Origin: Streptomyces camelliae
GTDB lineage: Bacteria; Actinomycetota; Actinomycetes; Streptomycetales; Streptomycetaceae
Direction: 5' to 3'
Assembly: GCF_027625935.1 (NCBI RefSeq)
Contig: NZ_CP115300.1
Location: forward strand, 3,720,001 to 3,784,000
DNA length: 64,000 nt
Part shown: one piece after another, positions 8,344 through 63,152 of the stretch
Layout of the letters: each line of letters begins with the position of its first letter
How positions within the stretch are numbered: position 1 is the first letter of the stretch
Notes under the pieces: generated by a model
The model's input: only the letters and a program-made list of their open reading frames with translations
Told to the model about the DNA's origin: nothing
The model's database searches: none
Translations under genes and position numbers: made by a program

Positions 8344-10647
8344 ATGACCATCGCTCCTTGGCGCGACCCCGCCCTGCCCGCCGACGCCCGCGTGGCCGAC
8401 CTGCTCTCCCGGATGACCCTGGAGGAGAAGGCCGCCCAGCTGTACGGCGTCTGGGTGGGCGCCGCCACGGACGGCGACGGGGTCGCGCCCCTGCAGCGCG
8501 AGATGACCGCCGAGTACGACTGGGACGAGCTGATCACGCGCGGCCTCGGCCAGCTGACCCGCTCCTTCGGCACCGCCCCGGTGGACCCGGCGCTGGGCGC
8601 GCAGGCACTGGCCCGCGCCCAGCGCCGTATCACCGCCGCCGGCCGCTTCGGCATCCCCGCCGTCGCGCACGAGGAGTGCCTGGCCGGGTTCACGGCCTGG
8701 CGCGCGACGGCCTACCCGGTGCCGCTCGCCTGGGGCGCCGCCTTCGACCCGGCCCTGGTTGAGGAGATGGGCCGGCGCATCGGCCACGATCTGCGCGCCT
8801 GTGGCGTCCACCAGGGCCTGGCCCCCGTCCTGGACGTCGTCCGCGACCCGCGCTGGGGACGGGTCGAGGAGACGATCGGCGAGGACCCGTACCTGGTCGG
8901 CACCATCGGCACGGCCTACGTACGCGGCCTGGAGTCGGCCGGGGTCGTCGCCACGCTCAAGCACTTCGCCGGGTACGCGTCCTCGGCCGGCGCCCGGAAC
9001 CTGGCCCCGGTCCGGGCGGGCGTACGGGAGTTCGCGGACATCACCCTGCCGCCGTTCGAGATGGCGCTGCGCGAGGGCGGGGCGCGCTCGGTGATGGCGG
9101 CCTACACCGAGACCGACGGGGTGCCGGTCTCGGCCGACCCGGGCCTGCTCACCGATCTCCTCCGCGACGCCTGGGGGTTCACCGGCACGGTGGTCGCCGA
9201 CTACTTCGGCGTCGGCTTCCTGGAGACCCAGCACCGGGTCGCGGCGGACGAGGCGGAGGCGGCGCACCGGGCGCTGACCGCCGGCATCGACGTCGAGCTG
9301 CCCACCCTGAAGTGCTACGGCACCCCGCTCGTGACCGCCGTACGCGAGGGCCGTGTCCCTCAGGCGCTGGTGGACCGCGCGGCCCGCCGTGTCCTGCTCC
9401 AGAAGTGTGAACTGGGTCTGCTGGACGAGGACTGGCGGCCGGAGCCGGAGGGCCCGGTCGACCTGGACTCGGCGCAGAACCGGGCGCTCGCCCGCCGGCT
9501 GGCCGAGGAGTCGGTGGTCCTGCTGGACAACCCGGACGGCCTGCTGCCGCTGGCCCCCGACACCCGGATCGCGGTGGTCGGCCCCCGCGCGGCGGACGCG
9601 CTGGCGATGCTCGGCTGCTACTCCTTCCCCTCCCACGTCCTCACCCACCACCCCGAGACCCCGCTCGGCATCGAGATCCCGACCCTGCTGGAGTCCCTGC
9701 GGGCCGAACTCCCGGACGCCAAGGTGACGTTCACCGAGGGCTGCGGGGTCTCCGACCCGGACACCGCCGGCTTCGCGGAGGCGGTGGCGCGGACGGCGGA
9801 GGCGGACGTGTGCGTGGCCGTGCTCGGCGACCGGGCGGGCCTGTTCGGGCGGGGCACGTCGGGTGAGGGCTGCGATGCGGAGGACCTCCGGCTCCCCGGC
9901 GTACAGGCCGAGTTGCTGGACCGGCTGGTGGCGACGGGCGTCCCGGTGGTGCTCGTGCTGCTGACCGGCCGGCCGTACGCGCTCGGCCGCTGGCACGGCC
10001 GGCTGGGCGCAGTCGTGCAGGCCTTCTTCCCCGGCGAGGAGGGCGGCCCGGCGGTGGCGGGGGTGCTGTCCGGCCGGGTGAACCCCTCCGGCCGGCTCCC
10101 GGTGAGCGTGCCCCGGGTGCCCGGCGGCCAGCCCTGGACCTACCTCCAGCCGCCGCTGGGCCTGGCCGGCGAGGTCAGCAGCCTGGACCCGACCCCGCTG
10201 TACCCCTTCGGGCACGGCGGCTCGTACACGGCGTTCACCTGGGCGGACGTCCACGCCCCCGAGGCCGGGATCCCCACGGACGGCTCGTACGACCTCTCCG
10301 TCACCGTCCGCAACACCGGGGACCGGGCGGGCGCCGAGGTCGTTCAGCTGTATCTGCACGACCCGGTGGCGAGCGTGACCCGGCCCGACGTACGGCTGAT
10401 CGGCTACCAGCGGGTGGAGCTGGCCCCGGGCGCCTCCCGCCGCCTGACCTTCCGCTTCCACGCCGACCTGTCGTCCTTCACGGACCGCACGGGGGCACGG
10501 GTGGTGGAGCCCGGGGACCTGGAACTGCGGCTGGCCGCGTCGAGCACGGACGTACGGCACACGGCCCGGATCAGGCTGACCGGACCGGTCCGGGCGGTGG
10601 GGACGGATCGGCGGCTGCGCTGCGAGGTCTTCGAACACCTGGATTGA
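8344..10647 (+). CDS. glycoside hydrolase family 3 (BxlA-like beta-xylosidase/beta-glucosidase)
   Basis: A 767-residue enzyme without a signal peptide, so intracellular. The GH3 N-terminal barrel (about 20-330) includes KHF (206-208) and the predicted nucleophile Asp286 in GTVVADYFGV. A GH3 C-terminal domain (about 375-590) and a fibronectin-III-like domain (about 640-750, TVRNTGDRAGAEVVQLYL) follow. Length and layout fit BxlA-type beta-xylosidases that trim imported xylo-oligosaccharides, and the shared operators with the xylanase support this. A beta-glucosidase or arabinofuranosidase activity cannot be excluded. The ATG follows GGGAG by five bases. Confidence 0.9.
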   Translation: MTIAPWRDPALPADARVADLLSRMTLEEKAAQLYGVWVGAATDGDGVAPLQREMTAEYDWDELITRGLGQLTRSFGTAPVDPALGAQALARAQRRITAAGRFGIPAVAHEECLAGFTAWRATAYPVPLAWGAAFDPALVEEMGRRIGHDLRACGVHQGLAPVLDVVRDPRWGRVEETIGEDPYLVGTIGTAYVRGLESAGVVATLKHFAGYASSAGARNLAPVRAGVREFADITLPPFEMALREGGARSVMAAYTETDGVPVSADPGLLTDLLRDAWGFTGTVVADYFGVGFLETQHRVAADEAEAAHRALTAGIDVELPTLKCYGTPLVTAVREGRVPQALVDRAARRVLLQKCELGLLDEDWRPEPEGPVDLDSAQNRALARRLAEESVVLLDNPDGLLPLAPDTRIAVVGPRAADALAMLGCYSFPSHVLTHHPETPLGIEIPTLLESLRAELPDAKVTFTEGCGVSDPDTAGFAEAVARTAEADVCVAVLGDRAGLFGRGTSGEGCDAEDLRLPGVQAELLDRLVATGVPVVLVLLTGRPYALGRWHGRLGAVVQAFFPGEEGGPAVAGVLSGRVNPSGRLPVSVPRVPGGQPWTYLQPPLGLAGEVSSLDPTPLYPFGHGGSYTAFTWADVHAPEAGIPTDGSYDLSVTVRNTGDRAGAEVVQLYLHDPVASVTRPDVRLIGYQRVELAPGASRRLTFRFHADLSSFTDRTGARVVEPGDLELRLAASSTDVRHTARIRLTGPVRAVGTDRRLRCEVFEHLD

Positions 10648-10759: not shown

Positions 10760-11644
10760 TTGACGACGCCTTCGACGACGAAATCCGTGACGACATCCGT
10801 CATGAAGAAGCTGCCCGAGGTCACGCTCGCCTTCTGGATCATGAAGATCGCGGCGACGACCCTCGGTGAGACCGCGGGCGACCTGTTCTCCCAGACCCTC
10901 AAGCTCGGTTACTTCCTCACCACGATCGCCCTGTTCCTGGTGTTCGTGGTGACGCTGGTGATCCAGCTCCGTGCCAAGCGCTACAACCCGTTCTTCTACT
11001 GGACCGTGATCCTGTCGACCTCGATGGCCGGCACCACCATGTCCGACTTCATGAACCGGGACGCGAGCGCCCAGTACCTCGCACCCGGCGCCACGTCACT
11101 CGGCTGGGGCCCGCAGGGCCTGGGCCTCGGCTATCCGGAGGGCGCCGCGATCCTCGTCTCGATCCTGCTGCTGATCTTCCTCGTCTGGAAGCTGAGCGGG
11201 ATGACCTTCCAGATCACCGAGATCGTCACCTTCCGGGGCGAGGCCCTGTTCTGGTCGGCGATCCTGGTCTCCAACACCCTCGGCACCTCGATGGGCGACT
11301 TCCTGTCCGACAGCTCGGGCCTCGGCTACCTGGGCGGCGCGTCCCTGGTGACCGGCCTCCTGCTCGTCCTGGTCGCCCTGATGCGGGTCCCGGCCGTGCC
11401 GAACGTCCTGCTCTTCTGGATCGCCTTCGTGCTGACCCGCCCGCTGGGCGCCACGGCCGGCGACCTCCTGACCAAGCCCGTCGCCAAGGGCGGGCTGAAC
11501 CTGGGTACGGCCGGCTCCTCGGCGGTGCTGCTCGCGGTGCTGTTCGGCCTGATGGCGTACGCGCAGCTGAAGGAACGACGAGCCGCCGCCCCCGAGTTCG
11601 CGGTCGCGGAGGAGGCCCGGCCGCAGCGGGCCGGGCACCGGTAA
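10760..11644 (+). CDS. multi-pass membrane protein with four internal repeats (COG4705-like)
   Basis: A 294-residue integral membrane protein of unknown function. One motif recurs four times, at about 25-44, 79-98, 164-183 and 219-238. Each copy has an aromatic start (FW/FYW), a hydrophobic run, and then a form of T-L-G-x-[TS]-x-G-D-[FL]; copy 2 has SD in place of GD. The Gly/Asp-bearing helices would face each other in a four-fold pseudo-symmetric bundle, a layout suggesting a channel or transporter (inference). The TTG start at 10760 is supported by AGGAG seven bases upstream; the first ATG (14 codons later) has no such site. Two 11-bp-spaced repeats lie upstream, so the gene may answer to a two-component regulator. 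Confidence 0.8.
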   Translation: MTTPSTTKSVTTSVMKKLPEVTLAFWIMKIAATTLGETAGDLFSQTLKLGYFLTTIALFLVFVVTLVIQLRAKRYNPFFYWTVILSTSMAGTTMSDFMNRDASAQYLAPGATSLGWGPQGLGLGYPEGAAILVSILLLIFLVWKLSGMTFQITEIVTFRGEALFWSAILVSNTLGTSMGDFLSDSSGLGYLGGASLVTGLLLVLVALMRVPAVPNVLLFWIAFVLTRPLGATAGDLLTKPVAKGGLNLGTAGSSAVLLAVLFGLMAYAQLKERRAAAPEFAVAEEARPQRAGHR

Positions 11645-11647
11645 CGC

Positions 11648-11681
11648 GAAACCCCGCCCCGGAGAACCGGGGCGGGGTTTC
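11648..11681. terminator. bidirectional terminator hairpin
   Basis: A perfect 15-bp stem (11648-11662 with 11667-11681) closes an AGAA loop. The stem starts with GAAA and ends with TTTC, giving a short U-run in either direction. It serves the membrane-protein gene on the plus strand and the tRNA gene on the minus strand. Confidence 0.9.
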
Positions 11682-11684
11682 TTC

Positions 11685-11757
11685 TGGAGCGCCGGGCAGG
11701 CCTTGCACCTGCATCTCCCCGCAGGAAGCGGGACGTCTTTCCTTGGACCACCAACGC
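11685..11757 (-). tRNA. tRNA-Gly(UCC)-like gene with atypical T-loop
   Basis: On the minus strand 73 bases fold as a cloverleaf with an encoded CCA end. The acceptor stem is GCGTTGG/CCGGCGC (two G-U pairs). The D-arm has a 3-bp GTC/GAC stem and loop CAAGGAAA. The anticodon stem is TCCCG/CGGGG with loop CTTCCTG (anticodon UCC), the variable loop is AGAT, and the T-arm is a perfect 5-bp GCAGG/CCTGC stem. It carries known glycine identity features: G1-C72, C2-G71, U73 and C35C36. The T-loop is TGCAAGG, so position 55 is G instead of the nearly universal U. It has its own promoter and terminator. It may be a dedicated non-translational tRNA or a rarely used decoder. Confidence 0.75.
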
Positions 11758-11812
11758 ACTGCGTCCGAAGCCGTTTTCCGTTGTCCGGGTCCCGGCCGTT
11801 CGCTGTGTGATG

Positions 11813-11842
11813 ATCATAGCGCAGTCCGGCCGGACACCTCAA
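11813..11842 (-). promoter_or_regulatory. promoter of the tRNA-like gene
   Basis: On the minus strand TTGAGG (11842-11837) and TATGAT (11818-11813) are separated by 18 bases, a strong vegetative promoter by Streptomyces standards. It would start a transcript about 50 bases upstream of the tRNA 5' end and supports real expression of the tRNA. Confidence 0.65.
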
Positions 11843-11844
11843 CT

Positions 11845-12102
11845 TCAGCCCTCGGCCACCGTCTCGAACCGCCAGCGGTGCACCGCCCGGGTCACCAACT
11901 CCGGGTCCGGCTCGGGCAGTTCGGGGAGCTCGGCGTCGTACGGGGCGTCCCACCACGTGATGACCAGGACCCGGTCCTGCGGCGCCCGGAAGGTCTCGCG
12001 GCGCAACGGGGCGTCGGCCAGCGGCTGTTCGCGGACCCAGGTGAGCAGTTCCTCGCCCCGGCCCGCCGTCGCGCGGGCCTCCCACATCAGCGCCACGGTC
12101 AT
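11845..12102 (-). CDS. small conserved-looking hypothetical protein
   Basis: An 85-residue cytoplasmic protein starting [20 protein letters not shown] and containing [21 protein letters not shown]. The beginning and the paired strand/helix pattern recall small dimeric alpha-beta-barrel (ABM-like) proteins, but I cannot assign a function. Its ATG overlaps the stop codon of tsaD (ATGA), so it is translationally coupled as the last gene of the tsaE...tsaD leftward run. The stop lies next to the tRNA promoter. Confidence 0.75.
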
Positions 12103-13187
12103 GAGGAGAGGTTCTCCCCGCTGATCTCGTGCACATGGTCGTGGTTGCCCGGGACATGGGTGTCCGTCACCGGCAGGGATGAGTCGGCCGACAGGTCCCA
12201 GCTGGAGGCGGACCGGTTCCGGGCGACCATCTCGGCGCCGAGGGCGGCCACCATCGCGCCGTTGTCCGTGCACAGCTTGGGGCGCGGGACGCGCAGTTCG
12301 ATGCCCGCGGCCTCGCAGCGGTGCCGGGCCAGTTCCCGCAGCCGGGAGTTCGCGGCCACACCGCCGCCGATCATCAGGTGCTCGACACCCTCGTCCTTGC
12401 AGGCGCGCACCGCCTTGCGGGTCAGCACGTCCACGACGGCCTCCTGGAAGGAGGCGGCCACGTCCCGGACCGGGACCTCCTCGCCGGCCGCGCGCCTGGC
12501 CTCGATCCAGCGGGCCACGGCCGTCTTCAGGCCGGAGAAGGAGAAGTCGTAGGCAGGGTCGCGCGGGCCCGTCAGGCCGCGCGGGAAGGCGATCGCCTCC
12601 GGGTCGCCCTCGCGCGCGTACCGGTCGATGACCGGGCCGCCGGGGAAGCCCAGGTTCAGCACCCGGGCGATCTTGTCGAAGGCCTCGCCGGCCGCGTCGT
12701 CGATGGTCGCGCCCATCGGGCGGACGTCGGAGGTGATGTCCTCGGACAGCAGCAGCGAGGAGTGGCCGCCGGAGACCAGCAGGGCCATCGTCGGCTCGGG
12801 CAGCGGGCCGTGCTCCAGCTGGTCGACGCAGATGTGCGAGGCGAGGTGGTTGACGCCGTACAGCGGCTTGCCGAGGGCGTAGGCGTAAGCCTTGGCCGCC
12901 GAGACGCCGACCAGCAGGGCGCCCGCGAGACCGGGACCGGCGGTGACGGCGATGCCGTCGAGGTCCTTCGCGGAGACGCCCGCCTCCTTCAGGGCGCGGT
13001 CGATGGTGGGGACCATCGCCTCCAGGTGGGCGCGGGAGGCCACCTCGGGGACGACGCCGCCGAAGCGGGCGTGCTCGTCGACGCTGGAGGCGACGGCGTC
13101 CGCCAGCAGGGTGGTGCCGCGGACGATGCCGACGCCGGTCTCGTCACAGGACGTCTCGATGCCGAGGACGAGGGGTTCGTCAGCCAT
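12099..13187 (-). CDS. tsaD: tRNA N6-adenosine threonylcarbamoyltransferase TsaD
   Basis: A 362-residue Kae1/TsaD enzyme that transfers the threonylcarbamoyl group to A37 of ANN-decoding tRNAs (t6A). It starts [17 protein letters not shown]. The metal-binding histidines are in GVNHLASHI (HxxxH), and the nucleotide-binding ASKHA motifs include [13 protein letters not shown] and [15 protein letters not shown]. It works with TsaB and TsaE, both encoded just upstream; TsaC is not in this window. Its start overlaps the end of rimI by 8 bases and its stop overlaps the next ATG, so the group is translationally coupled. Confidence 0.97.
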
Positions 13188-58159: not shown

Positions 58160-59398
58160 ATGACCGTTCCCGCCCCGACCGGAAGAACAGACCCGAATCA
58201 GCTGCCGACGGACGAGACCGCCGCCCCTTCCGCACCGCACCCCCGCCTGATCACCCTCCTCGCGGCGGCCTGCGGCCTGATCGCCGCCTGTCTCTACTAC
58301 TGCCAGCCCCTGCTCCCCCGGATCGCGGACTCCTACGGCGCCTCCCCCTCCGCCGTCGGCGCGCTGGTGACCGCCACCCAGGCCGGCTACACCCTGGGCC
58401 TGCTGCTGATCGTCCCGCTCGGCGACATCGTCGCGCGCCGCCGGCTGATCGCGATCCTGCTCGGCGCGGCCGGCGCCGGAATGCTCCTGTCCGGAGCGGC
58501 CCCCGCACTGTGGGTACTGCAGGCCGGAGGCTTCGCCGTGGGCGCCGGGGCGGTCGTGATCCAGATCCTCATCCCGTACGCGGCCTCCATCGTGCCCGCG
58601 GACCAGCGCGGCCGGGCGATGGCCACCCTGCTCACCGGCGTCCTGCTCGGCATCCTGTGCTCCCGTACGGCGGCCGGGCTGCTCGGCGGAGCCTTCGGCT
58701 GGCGCACGGTGTTCCTGGCCGCGGCCGGAACGCTGGCGGCCGTGGCCCTGCTCCTCGTACGACTGCTGCCCCCGTCCCCGCCGGACGTGTCCCTCGGCTA
58801 CGGCGCCCAGCTCGCTGCCACGCTCCGGCTGGCCGCCGCGGAACCGGTCCTGCGCCGCCGCTCACTGATCGGCGCGTGCTGCTTCGCCGCCTTCAGCGTC
58901 TTCTGGGCCACCTCGGCGTTCCTGCTCGCCGGACCCCACTACGGCTGGAGCACGTCCGCGATCGGGCTGTTCGCGCTGGTGGGCGCGGCGGGCGCGATCG
59001 CGGCCAAGGCGACGGGCCGAATCGTCGACACCGGCCGCGAGGCGGTGGCCACCGGTGTGCTGCTCGCCCTGGGCGTGGCCGCGTTCGCCGCGCTGTGGCC
59101 GGGCGGCCGCAGCCTGGCCTGGCTGGTGGCCGGGGTCCTGGTGCTGGACGTCGTGGTGCACGGCGTCCACCTGCTGAACATGAGCGTCGTCTACGACCTT
59201 CCGGACCACCCCAGGGCCCGGATCGCCTCGGTCTACATGACGTCGTACTACCTCGGCGGTGCGGCCGGCTCCGCGATCGGCGTCACCGCGTACCGGTTCG
59301 GCGGCTGGGAAGCGGTCCCGGCGACGGGAGCGGCGCTCCTTGCGGTGGGGCTGGTGGTGTGGGCCGTGGGCCTTCGGCGGCGTACGGGACGACGATGA
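58160..59398 (+). CDS. MFS family exporter
   Basis: A 412-residue major facilitator protein with about 12 helices. Characteristic stretches are LYYCQPLLPRIADSYGASPS, the A-motif-like LGDIVARRRLIAILL between helices 2 and 3, and the helix-4 region ILIPYAASIVPADQRGRAMA. It resembles drug and metabolite exporters of the Bcr/YnfM type, but the substrate is unknown. ATG 58160 is preferred because the promoter lies within the longer open frame. It stands apart from the kinase operon. Confidence 0.9.
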   Translation: MTVPAPTGRTDPNQLPTDETAAPSAPHPRLITLLAAACGLIAACLYYCQPLLPRIADSYGASPSAVGALVTATQAGYTLGLLLIVPLGDIVARRRLIAILLGAAGAGMLLSGAAPALWVLQAGGFAVGAGAVVIQILIPYAASIVPADQRGRAMATLLTGVLLGILCSRTAAGLLGGAFGWRTVFLAAAGTLAAVALLLVRLLPPSPPDVSLGYGAQLAATLRLAAAEPVLRRRSLIGACCFAAFSVFWATSAFLLAGPHYGWSTSAIGLFALVGAAGAIAAKATGRIVDTGREAVATGVLLALGVAAFAALWPGGRSLAWLVAGVLVLDVVVHGVHLLNMSVVYDLPDHPRARIASVYMTSYYLGGAAGSAIGVTAYRFGGWEAVPATGAALLAVGLVVWAVGLRRRTGRR

Positions 59399-62490: not shown

Positions 62491-63012
62491 GTGATTCCAG
62501 AAACCACCATCCCCAACTTCACGGTGCTGTTGTCCCCCACACCTCGCGGAGCCCGCCTCGCCCGCCTGCTCGCCACTGAACAACTCCGTGACTGGGGACT
62601 CCCGTTGGACTCGGCGGCGCACATCGTGGCCGAGCTGGCAGCCAATGCCGTCACCCACGGGCGCGTACCCGGCCGGGACTTCCGGCTCACGCTCTACGTC
62701 GTCGGCGACACGCTCCGCATCGAGGTGACGGACACACGCGGTGACCTTCCGCCCCGCGCCCAACGCACGTCCCCCGACGACGAATACGGTCGCGGCCTGA
62801 TCCTCGTGGCCGCGCTGGCCGACCGCTGGGGAGTGGCCGACGGGCCCACCCCGCGCAAGACCGTCTGGGCCGAGATCACCGTCCCGGCACCCGAACCCGG
62901 CCGCCCGCGCTCCGGTGTGACGGGCGGTCTTCCCCAAAGTAAAACGAGGGTGAAAGAACCCAACCAAGCCCCATCTCTCCCGCCCACGGCGCAAACTCAC
63001 CCACGCGGGTGA
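62491..63012 (+). CDS. ATP-binding protein, anti-sigma-factor kinase-like (HATPase)
   Basis: A 173-residue GHKL ATPase domain. N-box HIVAELAANAVTHG (about 49-62), the LRIEVTDTRGDLP stretch and G-box DDEYGRGLILVAALADRWG (about 91-109) are present. It resembles the SpoIIAB-type partner found beside WhiJ/XRE-DUF397 pairs in Streptomyces. The tail (about 135-173) is Pro/Arg/Lys-rich and unstructured. It is divergent from the regulator. GTG 62491 is the only start close enough to the N-box. Confidence 0.9.
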   Translation: MIPETTIPNFTVLLSPTPRGARLARLLATEQLRDWGLPLDSAAHIVAELAANAVTHGRVPGRDFRLTLYVVGDTLRIEVTDTRGDLPPRAQRTSPDDEYGRGLILVAALADRWGVADGPTPRKTVWAEITVPAPEPGRPRSGVTGGLPQSKTRVKEPNQAPSLPPTAQTHPRG

Positions 63013-63087
63013 ACATCGCCAACTCAGCTGGATTTCGGGCCCTTTGCCTGCCTTACGCTCGGCGCAACACAACCGCAGACATGCGAC

Positions 63088-63123
63088 GGCCCTCGCCGGG
63101 ACTGGCATCCCGTTGCGAGGGCC
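63088..63123 (+). terminator. hairpin after the ATPase gene
   Basis: GGCCCTCGC (63088-63096) pairs with GCGAGGGCC (63115-63123). An inner CGGGA/TCCCG stem and a CTGGCA loop complete the structure. No U-run follows. It lies 30 bp before the start of a broken gene and could be a terminator or part of its leader. Confidence 0.5.
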
Positions 63124-63152
63124 TGACCACCGAGGAAGGTAAGGACTTCCCG

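Follow-up and report, generated by a model that had tools for sequence, protein, structure and literature searches.

A dispersed one-gene tRNA-Gly(UCC) cassette in Streptomyces as a candidate glycine donor outside translation

The window analysed here, a stretch of 64,000 nucleotides from the 9.6-Mb genome of Streptomyces camelliae (GCF_027625935.1, contig NZ_CP115300.1, positions 3,720,001 to 3,784,000), carries on its minus strand, at 11685-11757, a 73-nt gene that ARAGORN calls tRNA-Gly(tcc). The gene and its surroundings comprise the following features, given with the basis of each in brackets.

10760..11644, plus strand: convergent ORF, membrane-protein-like by eye, outside the cassette (ORF)
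11648..11681, minus strand: perfect 15-bp hairpin 3' of the tRNA, probable terminator (read by eye)
11685..11757, minus strand: tRNA-Gly(UCC)-like gene with CCA encoded at 11687-11685 (ARAGORN, RF00005, anticodon-stem covariation, conservation)
11701..11707, minus strand: T-loop UGCAAGG, in which position 55 (11706) is G (sequence)
11722..11728, minus strand: anticodon loop CUUCCUG with anticodon UCC (11726-11724), U37 and a possible C32-G38 pair (sequence, alignment, predicted fold)
11758..11806, minus strand: leader of about 49 nt in the putative transcript, its start placed from the -10 site (alignments)
11813..11842, minus strand: promoter-like site TTGAGG-18-TATGAT (promoter scan, alignments)
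12099..13187, minus strand: upstream ORF in the same direction, marker of the orthologous site and taken here, from its sequence, to be tsaD (ORF, tblastn)

Read by eye, with a partition into stems and loops that is the authors' own, the gene is GCGUUGG-UG-GUC(C)-AAGGAAA-GAC-G-UCCCG-CUUCCUG-CGGGG-AGAU-GCAGG-UGCAAGG-CCUGC-CCGGCGC-U-CCA. The acceptor stem (GCGUUGG/CCGGCGC) is followed by U73 and the encoded CCA, the D-stem has three pairs, and the D-loop AAGGAAA retains GG (G18G19). An earlier note on this DNA, made from the letters alone, had described a cloverleaf tRNA-Gly(UCC) with encoded CCA, a three-pair D-stem and G55, and this description is borne out by ARAGORN, by the sequence itself and by the Infernal-type check that the note had proposed, in which RF00005 matches 11688-11757 at 37.3 bits, above the gathering score of 29, within a 501-base stretch. 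A fast gathering Rfam scan of the whole 64 kb does not have the gene among its matches. Folded alone, the 73 nt are predicted to adopt the cloverleaf as their minimum-energy structure (-31.9 kcal/mol), the stability of which is not unusual among composition-matched shuffles (z -1.06; 29 of 200 shuffles equally stable), nor is it when the leader is folded along with the tRNA (z -0.16); the best folds of two dispersed copies with their leaders (L101 and L102) are not cloverleaves. The argument that the gene is no chance sequence therefore comes from its conservation, set out below, and not from its folding energy.

The glycine identity set given in PMC9976931 (G1-C72, C2-G71, C35 and C36) is present in full in the window tRNA, as is U73, which protects Gly-tRNA from DTD (PMC6097841). 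U16, a glycine determinant in Thermus (PMC9976931), is missing from the short D-loop, which is a point against charging; the GlyRS family found here, TIGR00389, also matches in Thermus. In every one of 199 Streptomyces genomes GlyRS is matched twice, with the same pair of matches, which is interpreted as a single gene hit in two places; this one GlyRS would then have to charge all glycine tRNAs, and no sign of a dedicated second GlyRS appears in the 199 genomes.

The same genome contains ordinary tRNA-Gly genes: one UCC (L005), one CCC and three GCC. These have G49-U65, C50-G64, G51-C63 and a TTC T-loop, and the window tRNA has G49-C65, C50-G64, A51-U63 and a UGC T-loop. Among 56 ARAGORN sequences from loci of this genome (some differing at their ends only), 55 have a purine at position 37 and GTTCRA, the exception being a plasmid copy of the cassette; the window tRNA has neither the purine 37 nor the TTC T-loop by which an elongator tRNA-Gly is recognised. 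A second cassette copy, on contig C2, is 98.6% identical to the window gene over 71 nt. Neither this copy nor U37, the possible C32-G38 pair or the recurrence of the cassette in other genomes had been noticed in the earlier note. The objection that the window gene might be the only tRNA-Gly(UCC) of its genome, raised in advance by the earlier note, falls with L005, and the inventory of tRNA-Gly genes that the note had recommended adds to the ordinary UCC, CCC and GCC genes a second odd UCC gene, called type 4 here and described below.

Conservation was assessed at the site downstream of the presumed tsaD, where 35 orthologous loci have the gene 320-420 bases after that ORF; some of these are one site fetched twice, and identities were counted on 28 distinct stretches. 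Across these 28 orthologues the 70-base body has a mean pairwise identity of 97.9%, with 63 of 70 columns invariant. The -10 site plus leader has 64% (a value depressed by indels), the 50 bases downstream 61%, the bases just upstream of the promoter 67%, and the stretch beyond them, in which there is a small ORF, 79%. With 97.9% in the body and 61-67% in the nearest flanks, the alignment places the tRNA body under strong purifying selection, and the possibility that it is a drifting pseudogene in relatives, also foreseen beforehand, fails on the same figures. In an alignment of 42 distinct bodies, stem cells are 99.5% paired, exceeding all 500 shuffles; 31 of the 42 representatives come from a pattern scan that required TCC and much of the T-arm and left the acceptor end free. 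Anticodon-stem pair 31-39 is A-U in place of G-C in 11 of the 42 bodies, position 37 is U or C in 41 and G in one, and U33 is replaced by C in one. The elements G1-C72, C2-G71, U73, C35 and C36 are invariant in these 42 bodies and likewise in an alignment of 34 copies that were identified through similarity, by BLAST or with a model. Only 11 of 43 copies encode CCA, and the remaining copies would need CCA addition, which is a point against the reading preferred below. The 42-body alignment omits two decayed-looking bodies out of 44 (L171:2973 and L216:7102); the stretches concerned, L171:2973-3042 and L216:7102-7171, are apparently decayed or truncated cassette copies, from which it follows that cassettes can be lost.

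The promoter-like site has 9 of 12 consensus matches (0 in 50 shuffles) and stops 55 bases upstream of the tRNA gene; by eye other copies share its -10 part and the bases that follow, but not its -35 part. On the 3' side the 15-bp hairpin is probably a terminator, possibly common to the convergent plus-strand ORF, and hairpins of varying sequence are also seen by eye 3' of other cassette copies. Of the promoter and terminator named in the earlier note, a promoter-like site and a 3' hairpin are thus present; no U-run follows the hairpin on the minus strand, and a terminator scan reported none at the window gene. Within the leader, the core CTATGATCATCACA...CGAACGGCCGG is visibly kept, by eye, in most orthologues at the tsaD site; in 42 of 43 cassette copies a GATC lies no more than 70 nt upstream; and a possible leader hairpin in the dispersed copies has eight predicted pairs, three of them with double-sided changes, each pair being broken in 2-4 of 20 sequences (covariation term 0.04). 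These elements speak for a tRNA shape embedded in a longer regulatory RNA, as has been proposed for tRNA-Other of Bacillus cereus, a tRNA shape reported to be non-functional in translation and to belong to larger regulatory RNAs (PMC3399842). In the cassette, however, conservation is highest in the body, the leader as a whole being more divergent, the covariation in the leader is weak, and a regulatory role has no need of the retained elements read by GlyRS and DTD, all of which makes this explanation very improbable.

Beyond the tsaD site the cassette is widely dispersed within the genus. Of 199 Streptomyces genomes, 109 match a covariance model built on the 42-body alignment (R1), with up to six matches per genome; in one of the 109 (G167) both matches are the type-4 gene, and copy numbers are slightly high since G187 and G173 have one type-4 match each and the second match in G073 is another variant. 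BLAST with the whole cassette finds it in 108 of the 199 genomes. In a sample of the family it is present in 20 of 38 Streptomyces genomes and in 4 of 112 genomes of other genera, and in a class sample of 246 genomes R1 matches above 39 bits are restricted to Streptomyces; matches of 37-39 bits outside the genus in that sample were rejected as ordinary tRNAs by eye. A pattern scan of named genomes yielded at least 120 stretches, and among the 80 matches listed 79 are from Streptomyces and one is from Actinacidiphila. Plasmids also carry the cassette (69 matching PLSDB records, 67 from Streptomyces and two from Streptantibioticus), and one S. clavuligerus plasmid has eight cassette places. Laboratory strains with the cassette include S. 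lavendulae CCM 3239 and S. griseofuscus DSM 40191 (loci L153 and L172).

Each cassette generally stands alone. Thirty-seven of 42 loci have no further ARAGORN tRNA and five have one; two or three cassettes lie close together at L138, L153 and L188, and the cluster of many isoacceptors that marks a tRNA array is not seen at cassette loci. No conserved neighbour gene emerges from the ORFs around 43 copies at 42 loci, where no cluster of ORFs occurs in more than six loci and three of the six in the largest are the tsaD site; related genomes have some sites in common (e.g., L102, L112 and L120), so that not every one of the 42 loci counts independently. Among the 144 nearest proteins of 36 loci (a set that omits the window, L110, L123, L131, L136 and L137 as repeats of a site), no Pfam family has more than four members and no PADLOC family more than two proteins. 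Within genomes, 14 of 36 pairs of copies whose leaders clearly differ have the same body (19 genomes, pairs not independent), against 36 of 444 such pairs drawn from different genomes, which suggests within-genome spread or conversion of cassettes. An interpretation of the cassette as an attachment site was dropped because whole cassettes are repeated. On the 66-kb plasmid NZ_CP108691.1 (L260), the cassette at 10001-10071 adjoins DUF2397, DUF2398, SbcC-MukB-like and DUF2399 genes, presumably a Wadjet-like operon.

Dispersal of this kind could reflect a decoy or anti-defence tRNA that absorbs toxins or nucleases attacking tRNA or Gly-tRNA and spreads with plasmids and chromosome arms. The plasmid matches, the variable copy number and the one copy beside the presumed Wadjet-like operon agree with such a role. 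Arrays of tRNA genes on linear plasmids have been discussed as anti-defence (PMC12803027), but the cassette forms no array, it has no match in phage records and no exact pattern match in IMG/VR, PADLOC families near the 36 copies are as sparse as stated above, and the gene has been retained for long at the tsaD site, so that a decoy is distinctly improbable. The dispersal suggests that the cassette may deliver glycine outside protein synthesis.

Divergent relatives of the cassette bear on decoding. Two types (type 2 and type 3, at L289-L300, L305-L310, L312, L320, L321 and L329) keep U54 G55 C56, U73, G1-C72 and C2-G71 and have anticodon loops of 6 nt, C-UCC-AA in type 2 and CAACCG or CAGCCG in type 3. 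Both retain the C35 C36 read by GlyRS (the numbering in the short loop is the authors' own), and these 6-nt loops are the strongest argument that the cassette family has been selected for charging and not for decoding, as its sequences would indicate. A complementarity between D-loop and anticodon loop (AGGAA/UUCCU) was set aside, as by eye it is lost in the divergent variants. A tRNA that still translates GGA/GGG codons, with some elements relaxed, would account for the UCC anticodon and 7-nt loop of the window copy and the 42 aligned bodies, yet it sits poorly with the pyrimidine at 37 in all but one of those bodies, the possible C32-G38 pair, the C33 of one body, the missing TTC, the short loops of the relatives and the presence of an ordinary tRNA-Gly(UCC); it is the most improbable of the readings considered.

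Non-proteinogenic tRNA-Gly species of S. aureus have GUGC in place of GUUC. In them the strong EF-Tu pairs 49-65 and 51-63 are replaced by A49-U65 and A51-U63 (PMC4052509). The window tRNA resembles the S. aureus tRNA-Gly(UCC) genes of this kind, which feed FemXAB, in its UCC anticodon, G55, glycine identity elements, U73 and A51-U63, and differs from them in keeping G18G19, in having G-C and not A-U at 49-65, and in its pyrimidine 37. The cassette further differs in having 6-nt-loop relatives, in being dispersed as single genes, and in having no match in nearly half of the Streptomyces genomes sampled. Taken together, the identity elements, G55, the T-stem pairs, pyrimidine 37 and the short-loop relatives make the window gene probably a chargeable tRNA-Gly(UCC) kept off ribosomes, in keeping with that part of the earlier proposal.

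The reading preferred here, moderately probable in our judgement, is that of a glycylated, non-translating tRNA that delivers glycine to a non-ribosomal acceptor. The gene would be transcribed and the cellular GlyRS would attach glycine to its product; the T-arm and anticodon loop would keep the charged tRNA off EF-Tu and the ribosome, and it would then hand its glycine to an acceptor enzyme. Since nearly half of the sampled Streptomyces genomes lack the cassette, an accessory acceptor (FemABX-, GNAT- or PEARL-like) is most likely, and not core FemX alone. Plausible kinds of consumer are DhpK and Orf11, FemABX-like enzymes that use glycyl-tRNA in natural product pathways (PMC12945691), and that review gives no hit for 'tRNA gene' or 'dedicated'. 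No DhpK/Orf11-type gene is found among the 25 commonest Pfam families beside cassettes.

The type-4 tRNA-Gly(UCC) gene of the same genome lies on contig C1 at 4821773-4821844, minus strand (L088:874-945), 79 bases before a tRNA-Gly(GCC) gene, which also adjoins type 4 in four of the other loci read. ARAGORN misses the gene in this genome, for which reason it is not among the 56 sequences compared above, and calls it in some others. By the authors' parse its T-arm has one extra base, and the predicted fold, whose stability far exceeds that of shuffles (z -3.33), has a different T-arm; the start of the leader after the -10 site is similar, by eye, in type 4 and the cassette. Type 4 and the cassette are alike in UCC, the UGC T-loop with G55, A51-U63 and U73, and type 4 differs in its place beside tRNA-Gly(GCC), its purine 37, its retained G49-U65, its near-universal presence in Streptomyces and its lack of G18G19, a feature that it shares with the S. 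aureus genes and that the window gene retains. A model built from five sequences (R2) finds type 4 in 198 of 199 Streptomyces genomes and, in the family sample, in 107 of 150 genomes, including 38 of 38 Streptomyces; in the class sample all 22 Streptomyces score at least 94 bits and the best match elsewhere 71.3 bits, matches up to that score outside the genus being taken as ordinary tRNA-Gly. Two more UGC-loop tRNA-Gly(UCC)-like genes, at L317:3001-3072 (minus strand, G133) and L319:3001-3070 (plus strand, G073), are perhaps intermediate between cassette and type 4.

These distributions also bear on whether the window gene is dedicated to peptidoglycan, as the earlier note had suggested, or serves as an extra glycine donor for core FemX in building the LL-DAP-Gly bridge, added to the core type-4 tRNA. 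A FemX-type PF02388 protein is present in 199 of 199 Streptomyces genomes, and S. aureus sets a precedent with several odd tRNA-Gly genes, one of which is charged, binds EF-Tu weakly and is used for the pentaglycine bridge (PMC4052509, PMC8007984). Against this universal FemX, however, the cassette is matched in just the 109 of 199 genomes, genomes with and without the cassette among the 199 show no difference in their number of FemAB matches (Mann-Whitney p=0.26), and at least three FemAB matches are found in 65 of 109 genomes with the cassette versus 57 of 90 without it (Fisher p=0.66). The core type-4 gene is, moreover, already in place in nearly every genome, and FemAB occurs in 74 of 168 class genomes outside Streptomyces, where type-4 matches never exceed 71.3 bits, so that neither odd tRNA is generally required for FemX. 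Dedication to peptidoglycan is thus not upheld, an extra donor for FemX is unlikely, and type 4 appears, by its sequence and distribution, the better candidate for peptidoglycan supply than the window gene.

Beyond delivery of glycine by the cassette tRNA to a non-ribosomal acceptor, a broader proposal, possible and advanced tentatively, is that Streptomyces has two separate non-decoding tRNA-Gly systems: the core type 4, and dispersed, dosage-variable cassettes that have dropped the decoding constraint, keep only the elements read by GlyRS and DTD, and serve a widespread accessory glycine transfer. If so, about half of Streptomyces species would reserve glycine tRNAs for chemistry outside translation, the copy numbers of these would vary between strains and plasmids, and the consumer enzyme would represent a tRNA-dependent step, new or so far unrecognised, in bacteria that are mined for antibiotics. 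The core type-4 gene makes diversion of Gly-tRNA to FemX in Streptomyces directly testable, and in the short-loop relatives nature has run an experiment on the requirements of GlyRS. No published description of the cassette gene was found by title or start of abstract, and no paper combining Streptomyces, tRNA-Gly and non-proteinogenic; the literature searched was mostly without subscription papers and so is no proof that the gene is unpublished.

Several other RNA genes were observed in passing. The genome has an orphan tRNA-Arg(UCG)-like gene on contig C1 at 7815668-7815740 (L092), with A33, a normal T-loop and 39.5 bits in Rfam. Within the window, ARAGORN calls a tRNA-Pro(ggg) at 59158-59243 that has no RF00005 match in the search of this genome and is probably false. 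Rfam matches in the window include an L17 leader at 32939-32883 on the minus strand (70 bits) and the Streptomyces sRNA scr4677 at 62908-63152 on the plus strand (235 bits).
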